The notes under the pieces are model-generated. The model was not told where the DNA came from. It saw only the letters and a list, made by a program, of their open reading frames with translations, and did not search any database. A stretch of 64,000 nucleotides of DNA from Pseudomonadota bacterium (GTDB lineage Bacteria; Pseudomonadota; Gammaproteobacteria; Xanthomonadales; Xanthomonadaceae). Position numbers and translations under genes: made by a program. Shown piece after piece: positions 7,533-64,000 of this stretch; the first letter of the stretch is position 1; every line of letters begins with the position of its first letter. The stretch lies in contig JAFEEL010000013.1 of NCBI GenBank assembly GCA_018241125.1, forward strand, positions 94,043 through 158,042. Reading direction: 5' to 3'.

Positions 7533-10325
7533 ATGCAAGACCGCCTCGAACCCACGCCCCCCGCGCCCGCCGCCAGCGGCTACGACCCCAAGACCGTCGA
7601 GGCCGCCGCGCAGGCGTTCTGGTCGCGCACGCGCGCGTTTGATGCCCGCGAGGACGATCCGAAGCCGAAGTTCTACTGCCTGTCGATGCTGCCGTACCCG
7701 TCGGGCGCGCTGCACATGGGGCACGTGCGCAACTACACCATCGGCGACGTCATCACCCGCTTCCAGCGCATGAACGGACGCAACGTGCTGCAGCCGATGG
7801 GTTGGGACGCATTCGGCCTGCCGGCCGAAAACGCCGCGATCAAGCACAAGACCGCGCCGGCGAAGTGGACCTACGCCAACATCGCGCACATGCGCGAGCA
7901 GTTGACCACGATGGGCTACGCGATCGACTGGACGCGCGAGTTTGCCACCTGCAAACCCGATTACTACGTGCACGAGCAGCGCATGTTCGTGCGCCTGTTC
8001 AACAAGGGCCTGGCCTATCGCAAGCAGTCGGTGGTGAACTGGGACCCGGTGGATCACACCGTGCTGGCCAACGAGCAGGTGATCGACGGGCGCGGCTGGC
8101 GCACCGGCGCGCTGGTGGAAAAGCGTGAGATCCCGCAGTGGTTTCTGAAGATCACCGATTACGCGCAGGAGCTGCTCGATGGGCTGGACGTGCTGCCGGG
8201 CTGGCCGGAATCGGTCAAGACCATGCAGCGCAACTGGATCGGCCGCAGCGAGGGCCTGGAAATCGATTTCGCGGTGGAAGGCCGCGCCGAAAAGCTGACG
8301 GTGTTCACCACCCGCCCGGACACGCTGATGGGCGTGAGCTTCATCTCCATCGCCGCCGAGCATCCGCTGGCGCTGGCGGCGGCCAAGGACAATGCCAAGA
8401 TCACCGCCTTCATCGACGAATGCCGCCACGGCGGCACCGCCACCGCACAGATCGAGACGCAGGAGAAGAAGGGCGTGGAGACCGGCTACCACGCCATCCA
8501 CCCGATCAGCGGCGAACGCTTGCCGGTGTGGGTCGCCAACTTCGTGCTGATGGGCTATGGCACCGGCGCGGTGATGGGCGTGCCCGGCCACGACCAGCGT
8601 GACTGGGAGTTCGCCAGCAAGTACGACCTGCTGATCAAGATGGTGATCGTCAGCGATCCGGTGCGCGAGGCAATCCTCGAACTGGGCCGTGACGCGGCCA
8701 GCAACGCCGACCCGATGACCGCCGCGCTGGGCGGCAGCGCCGCACTGGACGTGGTCGAGCCGGCCGGCGCGCTGGACATCGTGTCCGAGTTCGAACGCGC
8801 CATCGTCGAGGATGGTGCCTACACCGAGTACGGCACCTGCGTGAACTCGGGCGACATCGACGGCATGGAGTACGAGCAAGCCTTCGAGTTCCTCGCCGAC
8901 AAGCTCGCACGCGACGGCACGGGCCGGCGTCGCGTCAACTTCCGCCTGCGCGACTGGGGCGTGAGTCGGCAGCGCTACTGGGGCTGCCCGATCCCGATCA
9001 TCTACTGTGAAAAATGCGGCGCGGTACCGGTGCCGGAAGACCAGCTGCCGGTGTTGCTGCCCGAGGACGTGGCCTTCATGGGTACGGGTTCGCCGATCAA
9101 GGCCGATCCGAACTGGCGCAAGACCACCTGCCCGACCTGCGGGGCGGCCGCCGAGCGCGAGACCGACACCTTCGACACCTTCATGGAGTCGAGCTGGTAC
9201 TACGCCCGTTACGCCTGCCCCGGCGCGGCCGACATGGTCGATGCGCGCGCGCGCCACTGGCTGCCGGTGGATCAATACATCGGCGGCATCGAGCACGCGA
9301 TCTTGCACCTGCTGTATTTCCGCTTTTTCCACAAGCTGCTGCGCGATCAGGGGCTGGTGGATTCGGACGAGCCGGCAACGAATCTGCTGTGTCAGGGCAT
9401 GGTGATCGCCGATACCTACTACCGCGAGGACGAACACGGCGGCAAGGACTGGATCAATCCGTCCGAGGTGGAGATCGAGCGCAATGCGCGCGGCCACGCG
9501 ATCGGCGCCAAGTCGAAGGCCGATGGCCTGCCGGTGCAGATCGGCGGCATCGAGAAGATGTCCAAATCCAGGAACAACGGTGTCGATCCGCAGGAGATGG
9601 TCGGCAAGTACGGCGCCGATACGGTGCGATTGTTCTCGATGTTCGCCGCCCCGCCCGAGCAGTCGCTGGAGTGGTCGGAGGCGGGCGTGGAAGGCTGTGC
9701 GCGCTTCCTGCGCCGGGTGTGGAAGTTCTTCGAGGAGGTGTTCGCCGCCGGCCACCACAAGCAGCTGCCGGACATCGCCTGGGACCGCGCGCAGGCCGAC
9801 GCGGCCACGATTGCCGTACGCCGCGAAATCCACGCCCTGCTCAAGCAGGCGGTGTACGACTACCACCGCACCCAGTTCAATACCGTGGTGTCGGCGGCGA
9901 TGAAGATGCTCAATCAGTTGGAGTCGCTCGGCGCCGGCGACCCGCCGGGCGCCAGCGAAGCGGCCAACCGGCAGCGCGATTTCGCCCGCCGCGAAGGACA
10001 GAAGTTCCTGCTCAAGATCCTCAACCCGATCGCTCCGCACATCGCGCACGCGCTGTGGCAGCGGCTGAACCACGGCGAGGAACTGATCGAAAACCTGCGC
10101 TGGCCCGAGCCCGATGCCGACGCCCTGCGCCGCGACAGCGTGACCTTGGCGGTGCAGGTCAACGGCAAGCTGCGCGGCACCATCGAGGTCGCCGCCGATG
10201 CGCCGCGCGAGGCCATCGAGGCCGCAGCACAGGCCGAGCCGAACGTAGCGCGTTACCTCGACGGTCTGGCCGTGCGCAAGGTGATCGTGGTGCCCGGCAA
10301 GATCGTCAACATCGTCGCGGCGTGA
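7533..10325 (+). CDS. leuS: leucyl-tRNA synthetase
   Basis: Class I synthetase charging tRNA-Leu, cytoplasmic. The ATG at 7533 ([10 protein letters not shown]) is chosen over one 19 codons upstream because it gives the normal N-terminus length. Visible motifs: HIGH-type [12 protein letters not shown] near residue 60, the CP1 editing domain ([31 protein letters not shown]), two zinc-type pairs CEKC and CPTC near 490-540, KMSKS in [14 protein letters not shown] near 674, and an anticodon/C-terminal domain ending [16 protein letters not shown]. At about 930 residues it is longer than the 860 of E. coli; an extra segment ([20 protein letters not shown] onward, about 50 residues) sits between the editing and catalytic parts. 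It heads the lptE-holA-nadD-rsfS run. Confidence 0.97.
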
Positions 10326-10350
10326 TCTTTGCCCACTACGGAAGCCGTCC

Positions 10351-10863
10351 ATGCGCGCACGTCGATTTGCTGTTCCACTGGCCTGTACGGTAGCGCTCGC
10401 ATTGTCCGCTTGCGGCTTCCATCCGCGCGGGGAGATGACGCTTCCGGCCGGCATGGGCGCGGTGAAGGCGTTTTCGGTCGATCCCTACGATCCGCTGGTT
10501 GCGGTGCTCAACCGCGACCTGGCGCGCACCGGCGCGCAGGCCGGCGCCGATCCGGCGGCCAAGGGGCCCACGGTGGTGGTCGCCGGACAGACCTGGGAGC
10601 AATTGCCGCTCACCGTCAACGTGCACGCGCAGGCAACCGAATACAACATCAGCTATGTGGTGAAGTACGAGTTGCTCGGCGCCGATGGCAAGGCGATCGT
10701 GCCCATGCAGGAAGCGCGCCTGCAGCGCGATTTCCAGTACGACGCCGCGCACGCGCTGGGCTCGGCGCAGGAGCAGGACACGATCCGCGACGAGATGCGC
10801 CGCGACATGGCCGCGACCATCATCCGCCGTATCGACATCGTGCTGCGCAACTATCGCCCCTGA
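10351..10863 (+). CDS. lptE: LPS-assembly lipoprotein LptE
   Basis: A 170-residue outer-membrane lipoprotein. The signal peptide ends in the lipobox LSAC at residues 18-21, followed by GFHPRGEM, the hallmark CGFxLRG-type start of LptE. The rest is a small alpha/beta domain (NVHAQATEYNISYVVKYEL; MRRDMAATIIRRIDIVLR). LptE plugs the LptD barrel and helps insert lipopolysaccharide into the outer leaflet. Gene order leuS-lptE-holA is the classic gammaproteobacterial arrangement; it follows leuS by 25 nt and precedes holA by 21 nt, so all three are probably cotranscribed. Confidence 0.93.
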   Translation: MRARRFAVPLACTVALALSACGFHPRGEMTLPAGMGAVKAFSVDPYDPLVAVLNRDLARTGAQAGADPAAKGPTVVVAGQTWEQLPLTVNVHAQATEYNISYVVKYELLGADGKAIVPMQEARLQRDFQYDAAHALGSAQEQDTIRDEMRRDMAATIIRRIDIVLRNYRP

Positions 10864-10884
10864 GCCTGCGGCCGCTGACGCGCC

Positions 10885-12039
10885 ATGCAGTTCGAAGACG
10901 AATCCGCGTTTGTCCGCCAATTGGCCCGCACGCCGTTGCCGCCAGCCATCCTGATCGCCGGTGTGGACGATCTGCGGGTGATCGAGGCGGCCGACGCGGT
11001 GCGCGCCAAGGCGCGTGCCGATGGTTGCGAACGCACCATCTACGATGTCGATGGCCGCTTCGACTGGGACGTGCTGGTGGGCGATTTTTCCGCGCTGAGC
11101 CTGTTCGCCAGCGCGCGCCTGCTCGATGTGCGCGTGCCCGATGGCAAGGTCGGCAAGGAGGGCAGCGAGGTCATCGCGGGCTTCTGCAAGGATCCGCCGC
11201 CGGGTACCACCTTGCTCGTCACCTGCATGGAGTGGAGCAAGCGCCACGCCGAATCGGCGTGGGTCAAGGCCATCGGCAAGGCCGGGCAGGTGCTGGCGAT
11301 GTGGGCGCTGCCGCGCCACAAGCTGCCCGACTGGCTGCTGCGGCGGATGAGCGCGCGCGGCATCGACGCCAGCCACGAGGCCGCCGAGCTGCTGGCCGCT
11401 CGCGTTGAAGGCAACTTGCTGGCGGCCGCGCAGGAGGTGGACAAATTATGTTTGCTGCTTGCGCAAGAGCGGGCTTCCAGCCGCGCCTTGCGCGAACACG
11501 GCGACGGCGAAGCCGCCGCACGTGTTCCCGGCGAACGCGAGCGTTCGCCGGCCGGGACATTCATGTCCCGGAGCCCGAGTTCGGGTTCGCGAGTGCGCAT
11601 CGACGCACCGGAAATGCAACGATTGGTCGCCGATTCGGCGCGTTTCGACGTGTTCAAGCTGGCCGATGCCTGCGTTGCCGGCGAGCCGGTGCGGGCGCTG
11701 CGGATCGTGCGCACGCTGCGCGCCGAGGGCGAGGCGGTGCCGGCGGTGCTGGGCGGATTGATTCCGAGCTTGCTGCAACTGGCCGGCTTGGCGGCGCAAG
11801 CCGCGCGCGGCGACGATTTGCGTGCGGCGATGAATGCGCAGCGCATCTGGGATGCGCGGCAGGCACAGTTTCGGCGTGCGCTCGAACGCCACGACGCCGC
11901 GCGTTGGGAAGCGTTCGCGATCGAGGCCGGGCGCATCGATCGCATGTCCAAGGGCCGCGCGGACGGCGATCCGTGGGTCGCGATGGAACGTCTGCTGGCC
12001 GCGGTGGCCAGCGCGCGTGGCCGAGCGCTGGTGGCGTGA
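10885..12039 (+). CDS. holA: DNA polymerase III subunit delta, with an in-frame repeat insertion
   Basis: Clamp-loader delta subunit, which opens the beta sliding clamp. Recognised by position between lptE and nadD and by its typical N-terminus (MQFEDESAFVRQLAR; LPPAILIAGVDDLRVIEAAD), the central region and a C-terminal helical domain (SARFDVFKLADACVAGEPVR; IDRMSKGRADGDPWVAMERL). The family is near 340 residues; this one has 384. The surplus is about 46 residues (roughly 192-237; ASSRALREHGDG to SPSSGSRV) coded by a palindrome-rich segment, described separately. The segment lies between the lid region and the collar domain, at what is probably a surface loop, and the frame is kept on both sides, so the gene is likely functional. 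Confidence 0.93.
   Translation: MQFEDESAFVRQLARTPLPPAILIAGVDDLRVIEAADAVRAKARADGCERTIYDVDGRFDWDVLVGDFSALSLFASARLLDVRVPDGKVGKEGSEVIAGFCKDPPPGTTLLVTCMEWSKRHAESAWVKAIGKAGQVLAMWALPRHKLPDWLLRRMSARGIDASHEAAELLAARVEGNLLAAAQEVDKLCLLLAQERASSRALREHGDGEAAARVPGERERSPAGTFMSRSPSSGSRVRIDAPEMQRLVADSARFDVFKLADACVAGEPVRALRIVRTLRAEGEAVPAVLGGLIPSLLQLAGLAAQAARGDDLRAAMNAQRIWDARQAQFRRALERHDAARWEAFAIEAGRIDRMSKGRADGDPWVAMERLLAAVASARGRALVA
11458..11597 (+). repeat. palindromic repeat inserted in frame within holA
   Basis: About 140 bp of near-continuous hairpins inside holA. An inverted pair GCGCAAG (11461-11467) / CTTGCGC (11487-11493) is followed by a perfect 10-bp stem 11529-11538/11541-11550 with a 2-nt loop, a perfect 9-bp stem 11552-11560/11563-11571 (CCGGGACAT TC ATGTCCCGG), and a 5-bp stem 11574-11578/11581-11585. 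The encoded segment is low-complexity, Arg/Ser-rich and foreign to the DNA polymerase delta family. Its length is compatible with an intact frame. It resembles in principle the Rickettsia palindromic elements, which sit in frame in genes. The exact borders are estimated from where family-like protein sequence resumes. Confidence 0.75.
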
Positions 12040-12070
12040 TCGCATGCGATCGGATGGCGATGGCTGGTCG

Positions 12071-12724
12071 GTGAAGCTCACGATTCTCTACGGCGGCACC
12101 TTCGACCCGGTACACGCCGGCCACCTGGCGGTCGCCGACGCGGCCGCGACGTGCTTCGATGTGGACGTGGCATTGCTGCCGGCCGCCGATCCACCGCATC
12201 GGCCGCCACCCGGGGCCGATGCCAGCCAACGTGCGACGATGCTTGATCTGGCGGTGGTTGGACATCCGCGCCTGCGCGTGGATCGCCGCGAGCTGCATCG
12301 CACCGGGCCGTCGTACACGGTGGACACCCTCGCACAGGCACGCAGCCAACTGGGTGTCCAGGCGCCGCTGGCATGGCTGCTCGGTGCCGATGCCTTCGCG
12401 GGCCTGCCGCGCTGGCATCGCTGGCGGGAATTGTTCGATCTGGCGCACCTGATCGTGGCCTCGCGCCCCGGTCATGGGCTGGAAGCACTCGATCCGGAAC
12501 TGCGCACGGCGACCGAGCATCGCTGGACGACCGACCCGGCTGCACTGCACCGCTCGCCTTGCGCGAGGTTGTTTCGACTCGACTTGCCCTTGCGACCCGA
12601 AGCGGCCAGCGACTTGCGCGCCCGCATTGCCGCTGGCGATCGGTGGCAGGACGAAACCCCGCCCGCGGTGGCCGCCTACATCGGCGCGCAGCGTTTGTAT
12701 CAGCGCCACCGCTTGCCGTCCTGA
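12071..12724 (+). CDS. nadD: nicotinate-nucleotide adenylyltransferase
   Basis: About 217 residues; converts nicotinate mononucleotide to deamido-NAD in NAD synthesis, cytoplasmic. Motifs: YGGTFDPVHAGHLAVAD (nucleotidyltransferase (T/H)xGH), LGADAFAGLPRWHRW, and the C-terminal region normally carrying ISxTxxR, here replaced by LDLPLRPEAASDLRARIAAG, where the signature is weak. The GTG at 12071 puts the start 8 residues before GGTFDP as in relatives; an in-frame ATG at 12044 is the alternative. It starts 32 nt after holA and is followed by rsfS, the usual order. Confidence 0.92.
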   Translation: MKLTILYGGTFDPVHAGHLAVADAAATCFDVDVALLPAADPPHRPPPGADASQRATMLDLAVVGHPRLRVDRRELHRTGPSYTVDTLAQARSQLGVQAPLAWLLGADAFAGLPRWHRWRELFDLAHLIVASRPGHGLEALDPELRTATEHRWTTDPAALHRSPCARLFRLDLPLRPEAASDLRARIAAGDRWQDETPPAVAAYIGAQRLYQRHRLPS

Positions 12725-12791
12725 AGCGCCGGCGTGTCGGGCTGCCCAAGGGGTCATTGCAGGATCGTTCCCGCGCCCGCACGCTTGTGCC

Positions 12792-12797
12792 TATACT
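12792..12797 (+). promoter_or_regulatory. possible -10 element upstream of rsfS
   Basis: TATACT lies 38 nt before the proposed TTG start of rsfS, in the nadD-rsfS gap. A weak TTCCCG sits 17 nt upstream as a -35. This would give rsfS its own transcript besides readthrough from leuS. Confidence 0.35.
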
Positions 12798-12834
12798 CCG
12801 CCAAAGCCCTTTCGCCACCCGAGGATTCGTCCAC

Positions 12835-13224
12835 TTGAGCTCCCAGGCCGTCGTCATCAAGACCCGCATGCCCGAACCGCCACCGTCGCCGGAGGCCCTG
12901 CTCGGGCAGGTTCGCGCCGCTCTGGAGGAGATCAAGGCCAAGGACGCCGTGGAAATCGACGTGCGCGGCAAGACCGGCATCGCCGACTTCATGGTGGTGG
13001 TCTCCGGTACCTCCACCCGCCACGTCAAATCCATCGCCGACGAAGTGGTGCGCTTCGCCAAGAAAGTCGGGGTGATGCCGTTGGGCGTGGAGGGCGAACG
13101 CGAAGCCGAATGGGTGCTGGTGGATCTGGCCGACGTGATCGTCCACGTCATGCTGCCACGGGTGCGCGAGTTCTACGCCATCGAGCGGCTGTGGACGATC
13201 GGCGATCAGCCGCCGGAGGAGTGA
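12835..13224 (+). CDS. rsfS: ribosomal silencing factor RsfS
   Basis: About 129 residues of the RsfS/Iojap family, which binds ribosomal protein L14 and blocks subunit joining in starved cells. Family motifs: EIKAKDAVEIDVRGKTGIADFMVVVSG shortened here to its key parts (DVRGKT, FMVVVSGTSTRHVKSIAD), GVEGEREAEWVLVDL, and DVIVHVMLPRVREFYAIERLW. The TTG at 12835 is favoured because GAGG lies 10 nt upstream; an ATG 11 codons downstream (12868) is the alternative. It closes the leuS-rsfS run; the usual next gene rlmH is not found, and a repeat-filled spacer follows. Confidence 0.93.
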   Translation: MSSQAVVIKTRMPEPPPSPEALLGQVRAALEEIKAKDAVEIDVRGKTGIADFMVVVSGTSTRHVKSIADEVVRFAKKVGVMPLGVEGEREAEWVLVDLADVIVHVMLPRVREFYAIERLWTIGDQPPEE

Positions 13225-13228
13225 GGCA

Positions 13229-13385
13229 GAGGACTGGGAGCCGGGAGCCGGGAGCCGGAGCAGGGAGCCGGAGCAGGGAGCAGGGAGCCGGAGCAGGGAA
13301 CCGGGAGCCGGAGCAGGGAGCCGGAGCAGGGAGCCGGGAGCCGGAAGCAGGGAGCCGGAGCAGGGAGCCGGAACAGGGAGCGTTG
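13229..13385. repeat. purine-rich short-period tandem repeat (GGGAGCCGGAGCA-type)
   Basis: About 155 bp made almost entirely of GGGAGCCGG and AGCAGGGAGCCGG units in irregular alternation, starting 5 nt after the rsfS stop. The frame-wise translations are compositionally biased, so no gene is called. The region 13225-13598 otherwise holds only a second repeat fragment and the candidate tRNA-Pro promoter. Confidence 0.85.
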
Positions 13386-13394
13386 CTTCGCGCT

Positions 13395-13420
13395 GTCATC
13401 CTGAGCGCAGCGAAGGATCT
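13395..13420 (+). repeat. dispersed TCATCCTGAGCG...GAAGGATCT repeat fragment
   Basis: The 26-bp stretch begins GTCATCCTGAGCGC and ends GCGAAGGATCT. It resembles a short repeat I recall from intergenic regions of many unrelated bacteria. Recognition is from memory, and only one copy is in this window. Confidence 0.5.
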
Positions 13421-13476
13421 GCTGTTCGGACGGCGCCGCAATGGCCATCGTGCCTGCACGCCCCTTTCATCATTCG

Positions 13477-13506
13477 TTGCGATCAGCGGTGCATTGCGTG
13501 TTAAAC
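13477..13506 (+). promoter_or_regulatory. candidate promoter for tRNA-Pro
   Basis: TTGCGA (13477-13482) and TTAAAC (13501-13506) are separated by 18 nt, about 93 nt before the tRNA-Pro gene. The sequence downstream is GC-rich with no open frame of note. Confidence 0.5.
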
Positions 13507-13598
13507 TGCGCGGCTCGCACGGCACGGGTCGCACGGTGCCGGGCCGCGCGGAAAACTGCCGCGCGAGCGCAAGGCAACGCGGACGCGGCAACTGAATG

Positions 13599-13675
13599 CG
13601 GGGTATAGCGCAGTCTGGTAGCGCGCCTGCTTTGGGAGCAGGATGTCGGGGGTTCGAATCCCTCTACCCCGACCA
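13599..13675 (+). tRNA. tRNA-Pro (anticodon TGG)
   Basis: A 77-nt cloverleaf with acceptor CGGGGTA/TACCCCG, TTTGGGA anticodon loop, GGTTCGAATCC T-arm and an encoded CCA end. First of five tRNA genes in a cluster. Confidence 0.97.
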
Positions 13676-13750
13676 CCTTCTGCGCACGTCCGCAGTGGTG
13701 GGTTCGGCGTGCGTGCGTGGATGGGTGCGTGGTCGGTATCATCGGCGTAC

Positions 13751-13826
13751 GCGCCCGTAGCTCAATGGATAGAGCACCGGCCTTCTAAGCCGGTGGTTGC
13801 AGGTTCGATCCCTGCCGGGCGCGCCA
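13751..13826 (+). tRNA. tRNA-Arg (anticodon TCT)
   Basis: A 76-nt cloverleaf: acceptor GCGCCCG/CGGGCGC, anticodon loop CTTCTAA, GGTTCGATCC T-arm, encoded CCA. A TATCAT at 13737-13742 is a possible -10 only 9 nt upstream. Immediately followed by a purine-rich repeat arm. Confidence 0.97.
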
Positions 13827-13827
13827 G

Positions 13828-13869
13828 CCGGAGGACGGAAGACAGAGGACGGAGGACGGAAGACAGAGG
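13828..13869. repeat. purine-rich repeat, left arm of an inverted pair
   Basis: GGAGGACGGAAGACAGAGG-type units. Positions 13844-13869 match the reverse complement of 14063-14088 at 24 of 26 bases, and both differences are compatible with G-U pairing in RNA. It begins 2 nt after tRNA-Arg. Confidence 0.8.
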
Positions 13870-13935
13870 GTGATCAGTAGTCGGTAACCAGTACCAGCCA
13901 GCGATCGCTGGACTCATGGAAGTACAAGAACGGGA

Positions 13936-14020
13936 GCACAAAAACGCGGAAGCACAAAAGCGCGGAGGCACAAAAGCGCGGAAGCACAAAAGCGCGGAAG
14001 CACAAAAGCGCGGAAGCACA
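13936..14020. repeat. 16-bp tandem repeat, about five copies
   Basis: Five head-to-tail near-identical units of GCACAAAAGCGCGGAA, ending at a degenerate sixth. It lies between the two complementary arms in the tRNA-Arg/tRNA-His spacer. There are no unique spacers, so it is not a CRISPR array. Confidence 0.85.
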
Positions 14021-14049
14021 GACGCCAGCGGACAGATGACTGTGGACAG

Positions 14050-14090
14050 ACTACCTTTCTGTCCTCTGTCTTCTGTCCTCTGTCCTCTGA
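14050..14090. repeat. pyrimidine-rich repeat, right arm of an inverted pair
   Basis: CTGTCCTCTGTCTTCTGTCC-type units ending 3 nt before tRNA-His. Positions 14063-14088 are the reverse complement of 13844-13869 with two mismatches. Confidence 0.8.
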
Positions 14091-14093
14091 ACG

Positions 14094-14170
<77 letters not shown>

Positions 14171-14225
14171 GTTACCGGATGCGGCATAATGCCGTGTCCG
14201 CTGCCCGAGGCGGCAGGAAGAGATT

Positions 14226-14301
14226 GGGCCGTTAGCTCAGTTGGTAGAGCAGTTGACTCTTAATCAATAGGTCGTAGGTTCGAATCCTACACGGCCCACC
14301 A
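14226..14301 (+). tRNA. tRNA-Lys (anticodon CTT)
   Basis: A 76-nt cloverleaf: GGGCCGT/ACGGCCC acceptor, CTCTTAA anticodon loop, GGTTCGAATCC T-arm, encoded CCA. A CATAAT in the tRNA-His/tRNA-Lys gap could be a -10. Confidence 0.97.
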
Positions 14302-14337
14302 ACTCTTCCTCGCTCGTGGCAGCCACCCGCGGCAATC

Positions 14338-14422
14338 GCGAAAGTGGCGAAACTGGTAGACGCGCCAGATTTAGGTTCTGGTGGGGCAACCCGTGAGAGT
14401 TCGAGTCTCTCCTTTCGCACCA
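14338..14422 (+). tRNA. tRNA-Leu (anticodon TAG)
   Basis: An 85-nt class II tRNA with long variable arm (TGGGGCAACCCGTG), acceptor GCGAAAG/CTTTCGC, TTTAGGT anticodon loop, encoded CCA. It precedes tig, an arrangement common in gammaproteobacteria. Confidence 0.96.
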
Positions 14423-63861: not shown

Positions 63862-63877
63862 TCGAACCGCCACGCCT

Positions 63878-63991
63878 AGCAGGCTGTTGAAAAACAGCCT
63901 GCTGATGCGATCCATGGACGGATCGCACGCCAATCAAACACGCAAGTGTTTGATTTGGCGGAGCCGAGTACGGGCATGTACCGGACTCGGC
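63878..63991. repeat. array of four consecutive perfect hairpins
   Basis: Stem 1: 63878-63887 with 63894-63903 (the pair AGCAGGCTGTT/AACAGCCTGCT, 11 bp). Stem 2: TGCGATCC 63906-63913 / GGATCGCA 63920-63927. Stem 3: AATCAAACAC 63932-63941 / GTGTTTGATT 63946-63955. Stem 4: GCCGAGT 63963-63969 / ACTCGGC 63985-63991. They follow each other with 2-10 nt gaps directly after the integrase stop. The last bases, GCGTTGAAA, may start another unit. No open frame is supported here. Confidence 0.8.
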
Positions 63992-64000
63992 GCGTTGAAA

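Follow-up and report, generated by a model that had tools for sequence, protein, structure and literature searches.

The extra segment in holA described here is very probably one copy of a small non-coding repeat family, about 115 bp long and built of several hairpins, which is dispersed in the order and often found at gene ends; in this instance the copy lies at a tight turn between two helices of the encoded protein, where it adds 41 net codons and leaves the frame open. As far as comparison of sequences reaches, structure and common motifs demonstrate that the segment belongs to such a dispersed family. Positions refer to the window, meaning the whole 64,000-nucleotide stretch that was analysed, and the genome from which it comes is called the own genome.

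The insert in holA

The host gene, an essential one for DNA replication, is identified by comparison of its product with E. coli delta (phmmer, E 4.6e-25), while Pfam PF14840 scored 25.4 bits, slightly below its cut-off of 27.3; in a first search holA was present in 59 of 60 genomes. The insert site is not close to the end of the contig, which measures 158 kb. A stretch of 174 nt in four congeners corresponds to 297 nt here, an excess of 123 nt or 41 codons, and in all four of those shorter genes K-L-x-L-L runs directly into the next helix. Against E. coli delta, residues 192 and 239 of the product pair with residues 192 and 197, leaving 46 residues where E. coli has 4. The figure of about 46 added residues given in the original prediction is to be corrected to a net gain of 41 codons over congeners. 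The stretch missing from congeners runs from about 11458 to 11590 with the frame kept; the modelled element takes up 11458–11572 (Table 1) and is followed by some 18 nt, including a fifth short hairpin, before holA homology restarts.

Table 1. Coordinates of the holA insert, its hairpins and a second repeat in the window, with in-frame copies inside genes of other genomes.
Feature	Position or genome	Strand or orientation	Basis
holA (DNA polymerase III delta subunit), which carries the insert	10885–12039	+	Open ORF, 384 aa
Multi-hairpin repeat element in holA, in frame	11458–11572	+	R2 92.6 bits, E 2.9e-14; R3 85.3 bits, E 1.7e-14 in 1.10 Mb; both models built without the holA copy
Hairpin A: outer stem and GGGC-TTCCA-GCC core	11458–11493	+	R2 alignment; consensus fold of 13 copies
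Hairpin B: outer stem GAACACG/CGTGTTC, inner GACGGC-GAA-GCCGCC	11494–11527	+	R2 alignment
Hairpin C: perfect 11-bp stem, 2-nt loop	11528–11551	+	Inverted repeat
Hairpin D: perfect 9-bp stem, 2-nt loop (CCGGGACAT-TC-ATGTCCCGG)	11552–11571	+	Inverted repeat; R2 alignment
Fifth short hairpin: 5-bp stem, 2-nt loop (CCCGA-GT-TCGGG)	11574–11585	+	Outside the modelled element, within the stretch absent from congeners
159-bp MITE-like repeat, copy cut by the window end	63877–64000	-	99.2% identical to consensus over query 36–158; kinship to the holA element suggested, not firm
Copy in lhr-type helicase gene	G003	Antisense	Pfam; relative aligns on both sides
Copies in purL	G183 and G236, same place	Antisense	Pfam; relative aligns on both sides of the G236 insert
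Copy in SBP_bac_5 protein gene	G251	In frame	Pfam; OppA-like relative aligns on both sides

Wider sampling agrees with the absence from related holA genes that had been expected of an insertion: among 30 loci examined at the site, the own one included, the segment is missing from 29 of 29 relatives. A 118-residue HolA query across the site found matches in 229 of 395 genomes of the taxonomic family and, among the matches listed, only the own genome covers the full query; G011 covers residues 5–115 at 55% identity. The holA gene of G011 (locus L007) has, at the same site, a different and independent low-complexity loop of about 22 residues, for which a search with covariance model R1 (described below) gave no match. 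Taken together, comparison with relatives supports an insertion that keeps the frame in a gene that is otherwise intact, as had been claimed: the ORF is open, and E. coli delta aligns up to residue 192 and again from 239.

No stop comes with the 41 net codons, so that holA remains open, and an extra loop, predicted to be mostly disordered, is most likely part of the delta subunit. These codons are presumably translated, in which case the loop would include the peptide LAQERASSRALREHGDGEAAARVPGERERSPAGTFMSRS. An AlphaFold2 model of HolA (17 sequences; mean pLDDT 88.2) has a helix up to residue 210 and pLDDT below 50 at residues 214–232 in an otherwise confident fold. At the place of the suggested surface loop the model shows a lengthened helix followed by the low-confidence stretch.

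The perfect inverted repeats reported within holA are present in frame. The stems of 9 and 5 bp with 2-nt loops stand as described and the one given as 10 bp is in fact the 11-bp stem of hairpin C; a nested inverted-repeat pair does occur around 11491–11530, 5' of hairpin C, and the segment as a whole consists of several hairpins in succession, not of a single palindrome. Its folding energy is -79.0, against -60.0 +/- 4.9 for 500 synonymous recodings, none of which folds as low (0/500), so the hairpins exceed chance and are no by-product of the peptide. Four other holA stretches, recoded in the same way as a control, gave z values of -1.1 to +0.8. By a simple hairpin score the holA stretch ranked third in a 415-kb sample of the own genome.

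Structural evidence for a dispersed family

Searches at the level of nucleotides returned little from the own genome or from phages. BLAST of the insert found no second copy in the own genome at E <= 0.001 (best other piece, E 0.0155) and no family in phages, and in 1.10 Mb of that genome no 10-mer of the insert both occurred at least 8 times and was enriched fourfold over expectation. The left hairpin has a REP-like match to GTGGGAGCGGCTTCTAGCCGCG, which was dropped as too short. When 395 genomes of the taxonomic family were searched with the segment, DNA matches at E <= 0.01 appeared in 242; 14 of these loci were aligned and three long matches, in other genera (L116, L118 and L120), were followed, the others being judged short GC-rich chance matches by length alone. 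The same order of hairpins as in these three is found in a hairpin cluster of the own genome, L080, which lies between what we take to be rplA and rplJ (gene names read by eye) and is antisense to both; with L080 as lead, related matches were found in all four congeners.

Thirteen copies, holA included, were aligned with MAFFT and share a fold of 44 pairs, 30 of which have at least one sequence changed on both sides with the pair kept. These copies gave the covariance model R1. A second model, R2, was built from 23 copies without holA, its alignment being aided by R1, which had seen holA; a third, R3, was built from 25 copies, all from other genera, in a fresh MAFFT alignment, with an RNAalifold structure of 22 pairs that is confined to hairpins A and D. 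Two-sided changes affect 36 of the 44 pairs in the 23-copy set, where 93.6% of cells pair, with a covariation of 0.581 against 0.173 in shuffled alignments; shifting the partners by 1 to 3 columns reduces pairing to 31–42%.

Applied to the window, R2 returned the holA segment as its sole strong match, at 92.6 bits, the next reaching 14.2 bits. Across 61 sources of the own genome (1,100,949 bases), R3 ranked L080 first and holA second (85.3 bits, E 1.7e-14), followed by L094, L044 and L062, with the next match at E 0.012. The further genomic copies that the original prediction called for are accordingly missing at the level of sequence, where BLAST found none, and present at the level of structure, where R2 and R3 find them. 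Absence of other copies was one half of the case that would have told against an insertion, and the BLAST null alone would have supplied it; that null is offset because the covariance models find further members in the own genome. The lesson is that a BLAST-based search for copies may overlook a hairpin family of this kind.

Some other repeats in the own genome were noted in passing. They include a hairpin-rich 123-bp unit in 3.2 tandem copies (L051:11852–12247), a CRISPR-like array with the repeat GTCGCCCGCTTCAACCGAAGCGGGCGCGGATTGAAAC (L044, about 9200–14400), and REP-like repeats of GGGAG plus a hairpin in small tandem groups (L036:16069–16224, L047:28–185 and L055:19451–19531).

Placement of the copies and possible routes of spread

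At E <= 0.001, R2 places copies in at least 37 of 297 genomes and at least 17 of 54 genera of the taxonomic family, in at least 24 of 299 genomes and at least 18 of 85 genera of the order (own family included), and finds at least 8 copies in the own genome; the genome counts are lower bounds because 12 candidates were scored per genome. The position survey covered 92 copies in 85 loci. Forty-five of them start between -15 and +6 nt from the stop codon of a coding-like sense frame, as do 107 of 9200 random positions (1.2%), with coding calls made by a home-made hexamer score; these 45 starts are not independent, because some copies occupy orthologous places. For 5 of the 92, the stop of an antisense gene lies at the opposite end. 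The adjoining stop is TAG or TAA in 26 of the 45, as compared with 200 of 714 ORFs in a baseline from the own genome alone (p 7e-5), an excess that fits a TA-containing target. A tRNA gene lies about 5 nt from the copy in 7 of 20 scanned loci (L171, L174, L203, L210, L229, L236 and L259), and NuoA-like C-termini (named by eye) are followed by a copy at seemingly orthologous places in L178, L180, L183, L205 and L207. Bacterial stem-loops in general are reported to concentrate downstream of stop codons (PMC1590033).

The holA copy is placed mid-gene, unlike the gene-end position that is common, though not universal, in the family. Among the copies surveyed 422 of 552 frames are open, against 63% in dinucleotide shuffles, and random landing should often be tolerated in frame because most copy frames are open. 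Confirmed in-frame intragenic copies number 5 of 92: that in holA, one in an lhr-type helicase, two in purL in two genera, and one in an SBP_bac_5 oligopeptide-binding protein, Pfam having named these three further host types across four proteins. Alignment to solved relatives that lack the insert locates the extra residues in each kind of protein: query residues 484 and 538 pair with 597 and 606 for PurL of G236, 491 and 534 with 1050 and 1052 for the Lhr-type helicase, and 355 and 412 with 286 and 290 for the OppA-like protein.

The PurL site invites separate comment. A 180-residue PurL query against the 395 family genomes gave at least 106 end-to-end alignments among the matches listed, with differing lengths. 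At twelve purL loci (L286–L297) the hairpin-rich sequence that occupies the loop in frame differs from genus to genus; 10 of the 12 were readable, and other hairpin-rich inserts were seen by eye in, for example, L293, L294, L295 and L297. R2 gave two strong matches at 59–68 bits, 14.1 bits (E 0.4) at L288 and none there in the others, and the idea that the loop is generally filled by the holA-element family was rejected, since R2 is strong in only 2 of 12 loci. Palindromic DNA seems to have a hot spot at this site.

A near-identical 159-bp repeat of the own genome, one copy of which is cut by the window end, argues for recent spread but is loosely tied to the hairpin family. Its consensus recovered 12 pieces at least 96.8% identical in the own sample, six of them (nearly) full length, among 22 rows in all; the pieces occupy separate loci, with sharp borders and imperfect terminal inverted repeats (CTAACAGGTTGTTGAAAAA / TTAGCAGGCTGTTGAAAAA), and CTA-like letters flank several copies at both ends. 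The copy at the window end adjoins an apparent integrase C-terminus, read by eye. On 12 copies R2 scored six at 34–53 bits and one at 21 bits and left five undetected, R3 scored only one (24.4 bits, E 0.022), and neither model matched the window-end copy; with scores so low or absent, the models suggest kinship with the holA element but do not make it firm. At the holA site no terminal inverted repeat or target duplication was read. Several contig ends (the end of L077 and the starts of L078, L082 and L094) carry the terminal letters common to the 159-bp repeat, as expected of a collapsed multi-copy transposon. No transposase tied to the hairpin family was identified, including at the contig ends with similar terminal letters. 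Y1_Tnp genes were found in G000, G001 and G003 but neither in G002, which has 6 copies, nor in G004, which is incomplete and has 4; Y1_Tnp as sole mobiliser is unsupported, given the 6 copies of G002.

Copies of the family could have spread as mobile DNA, perhaps MITE-like and aided in trans at TA-containing targets, and the holA copy would have arrived as one such mobile repeat. As regards the loop from a mobile repeat that had been proposed, the covariance models confirm the repeat family, and we infer the mobile arrival of the holA copy. Pairing may be maintained at the DNA level. Cells with G-U do not clearly outnumber those with A-C (114 and 108 in the 92 copies; 30 and 20 in the better set of 23 copies, p 0.10), which weakly suggests pairing kept in DNA. 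A bolder and quite tentative possibility is that the hairpins are selfish DNA which has become adapted to coding sequence. Most frames of a copy would then be nearly free of stops, insertion would take place at gene ends or, with the frame kept, within loops of core proteins, and the DNA itself would preserve Watson-Crick pairing, by template-switch correction or through transposition that depends on hairpins, even in translated copies. If this were true, PurL-like proteins would be long-lived hot spots for different hairpin families.

Selection could instead act on RNA, the segment being a conserved functional cis-acting element (for attenuation at gene ends, or for the stability or processing of mRNA there) that is active in the holA message, which would be compatible with mobility. 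We consider this improbable, although the strong covariation in the 23-copy set, the excess of sense copies right after stops over antisense ones (45 against 5 of 92) and the seemingly orthologous NuoA-like sites across genera all speak for it; against it stand the G-U cells, not clearly above A-C cells, the antisense orientation of the own L080 copy to both flanking genes, and Rfam, in which tRNA alone reached the gathering score on five copy-bearing loci. Still less probable, and by a wide distance, are palindromes made de novo by template switching (snap-back copying) in replication, with no inserted element. Perfect stems with 2-nt loops and the absence of a near-identical second copy are what such switching would give, but the order of four hairpins and the core motifs are common to other genera (R3, 85.3 bits), and local switching would not rebuild them in that order; after insertion, template switching may keep the arms matched. 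An ordinary diverged HolA loop, hairpin-rich by coincidence, is hardly credible: in its favour G011 has a loop of its own at the same place, but that loop has no R1 match, while the holA segment is matched by R2 and R3, is absent in 4/4 congeners and has a folding energy that 0/500 synonymous recodings reach.

Comparison with known repeats

Palindromes that code for protein have been reported from Rickettsia and Wolbachia and, in some instances, from other organisms. In the open-licence literature we found no description of such a family for Xanthomonas-like bacteria. With a dispersed repeat family, parts of which may be translated, one can study how protein sequence arises from repeats and why structure persists in coding DNA, and also whether it is selection on RNA or the processing of DNA that maintains the pairing.

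Intragenic copies as such are on record for RPE, ERIC/RU, Coxiella MITEs and tagged REPs (PMC2229807, PMC10969869, PMC2759123, PMC5896051, PMC3733652). With the MITEs (QMITE1 and QMITE2 of Coxiella, ERIC/RU) the holA-type family shares small size, multiple copies and lack of coding function; QMITE2 is reported mainly from intergenic DNA and 3' untranslated regions, and some of its copies form in-frame fusions (PMC5896051, PMC2759123). The holA-type family differs in its strongly covarying row of hairpins, and in that no terminal inverted repeat was seen at the holA copy and no partner transposase was found. REPs with GTAG or CGTC tags are likewise hairpin repeats with known intragenic units (PMC3733652), whereas the present elements measure about 115 bp against 20–40 bp for REPs. 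Any of four GTAG/CGTC-type tetramers lies within 8 nt of an end, on either strand, in just 16 of 92 copies, short of what a REP tag would imply, and copies occur in G002, where no Y1_Tnp (RAYT) was found, which separates the family further from REPs with RAYT.

A parallel in behaviour exists with the Rickettsia palindromic elements (RPEs), as the original prediction proposed. These are palindromic repeats of 105–150 bp, reported both between genes and in frame within genes for unrelated proteins (PMC2229807, PMC10969869), and the holA-type family is likewise found in frame in unrelated proteins, three kinds besides HolA. By analogy this supports a common behaviour, not proof of membership: the present family belongs to another lineage and consists of a row of four separate hairpins, often adjoining stops or tRNA genes. 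The present case is a separate hairpin family, of another order than that of Rickettsia, with in-frame copies in proteins as different as a clamp-loader subunit and a helicase, or a purine enzyme and a binding protein.
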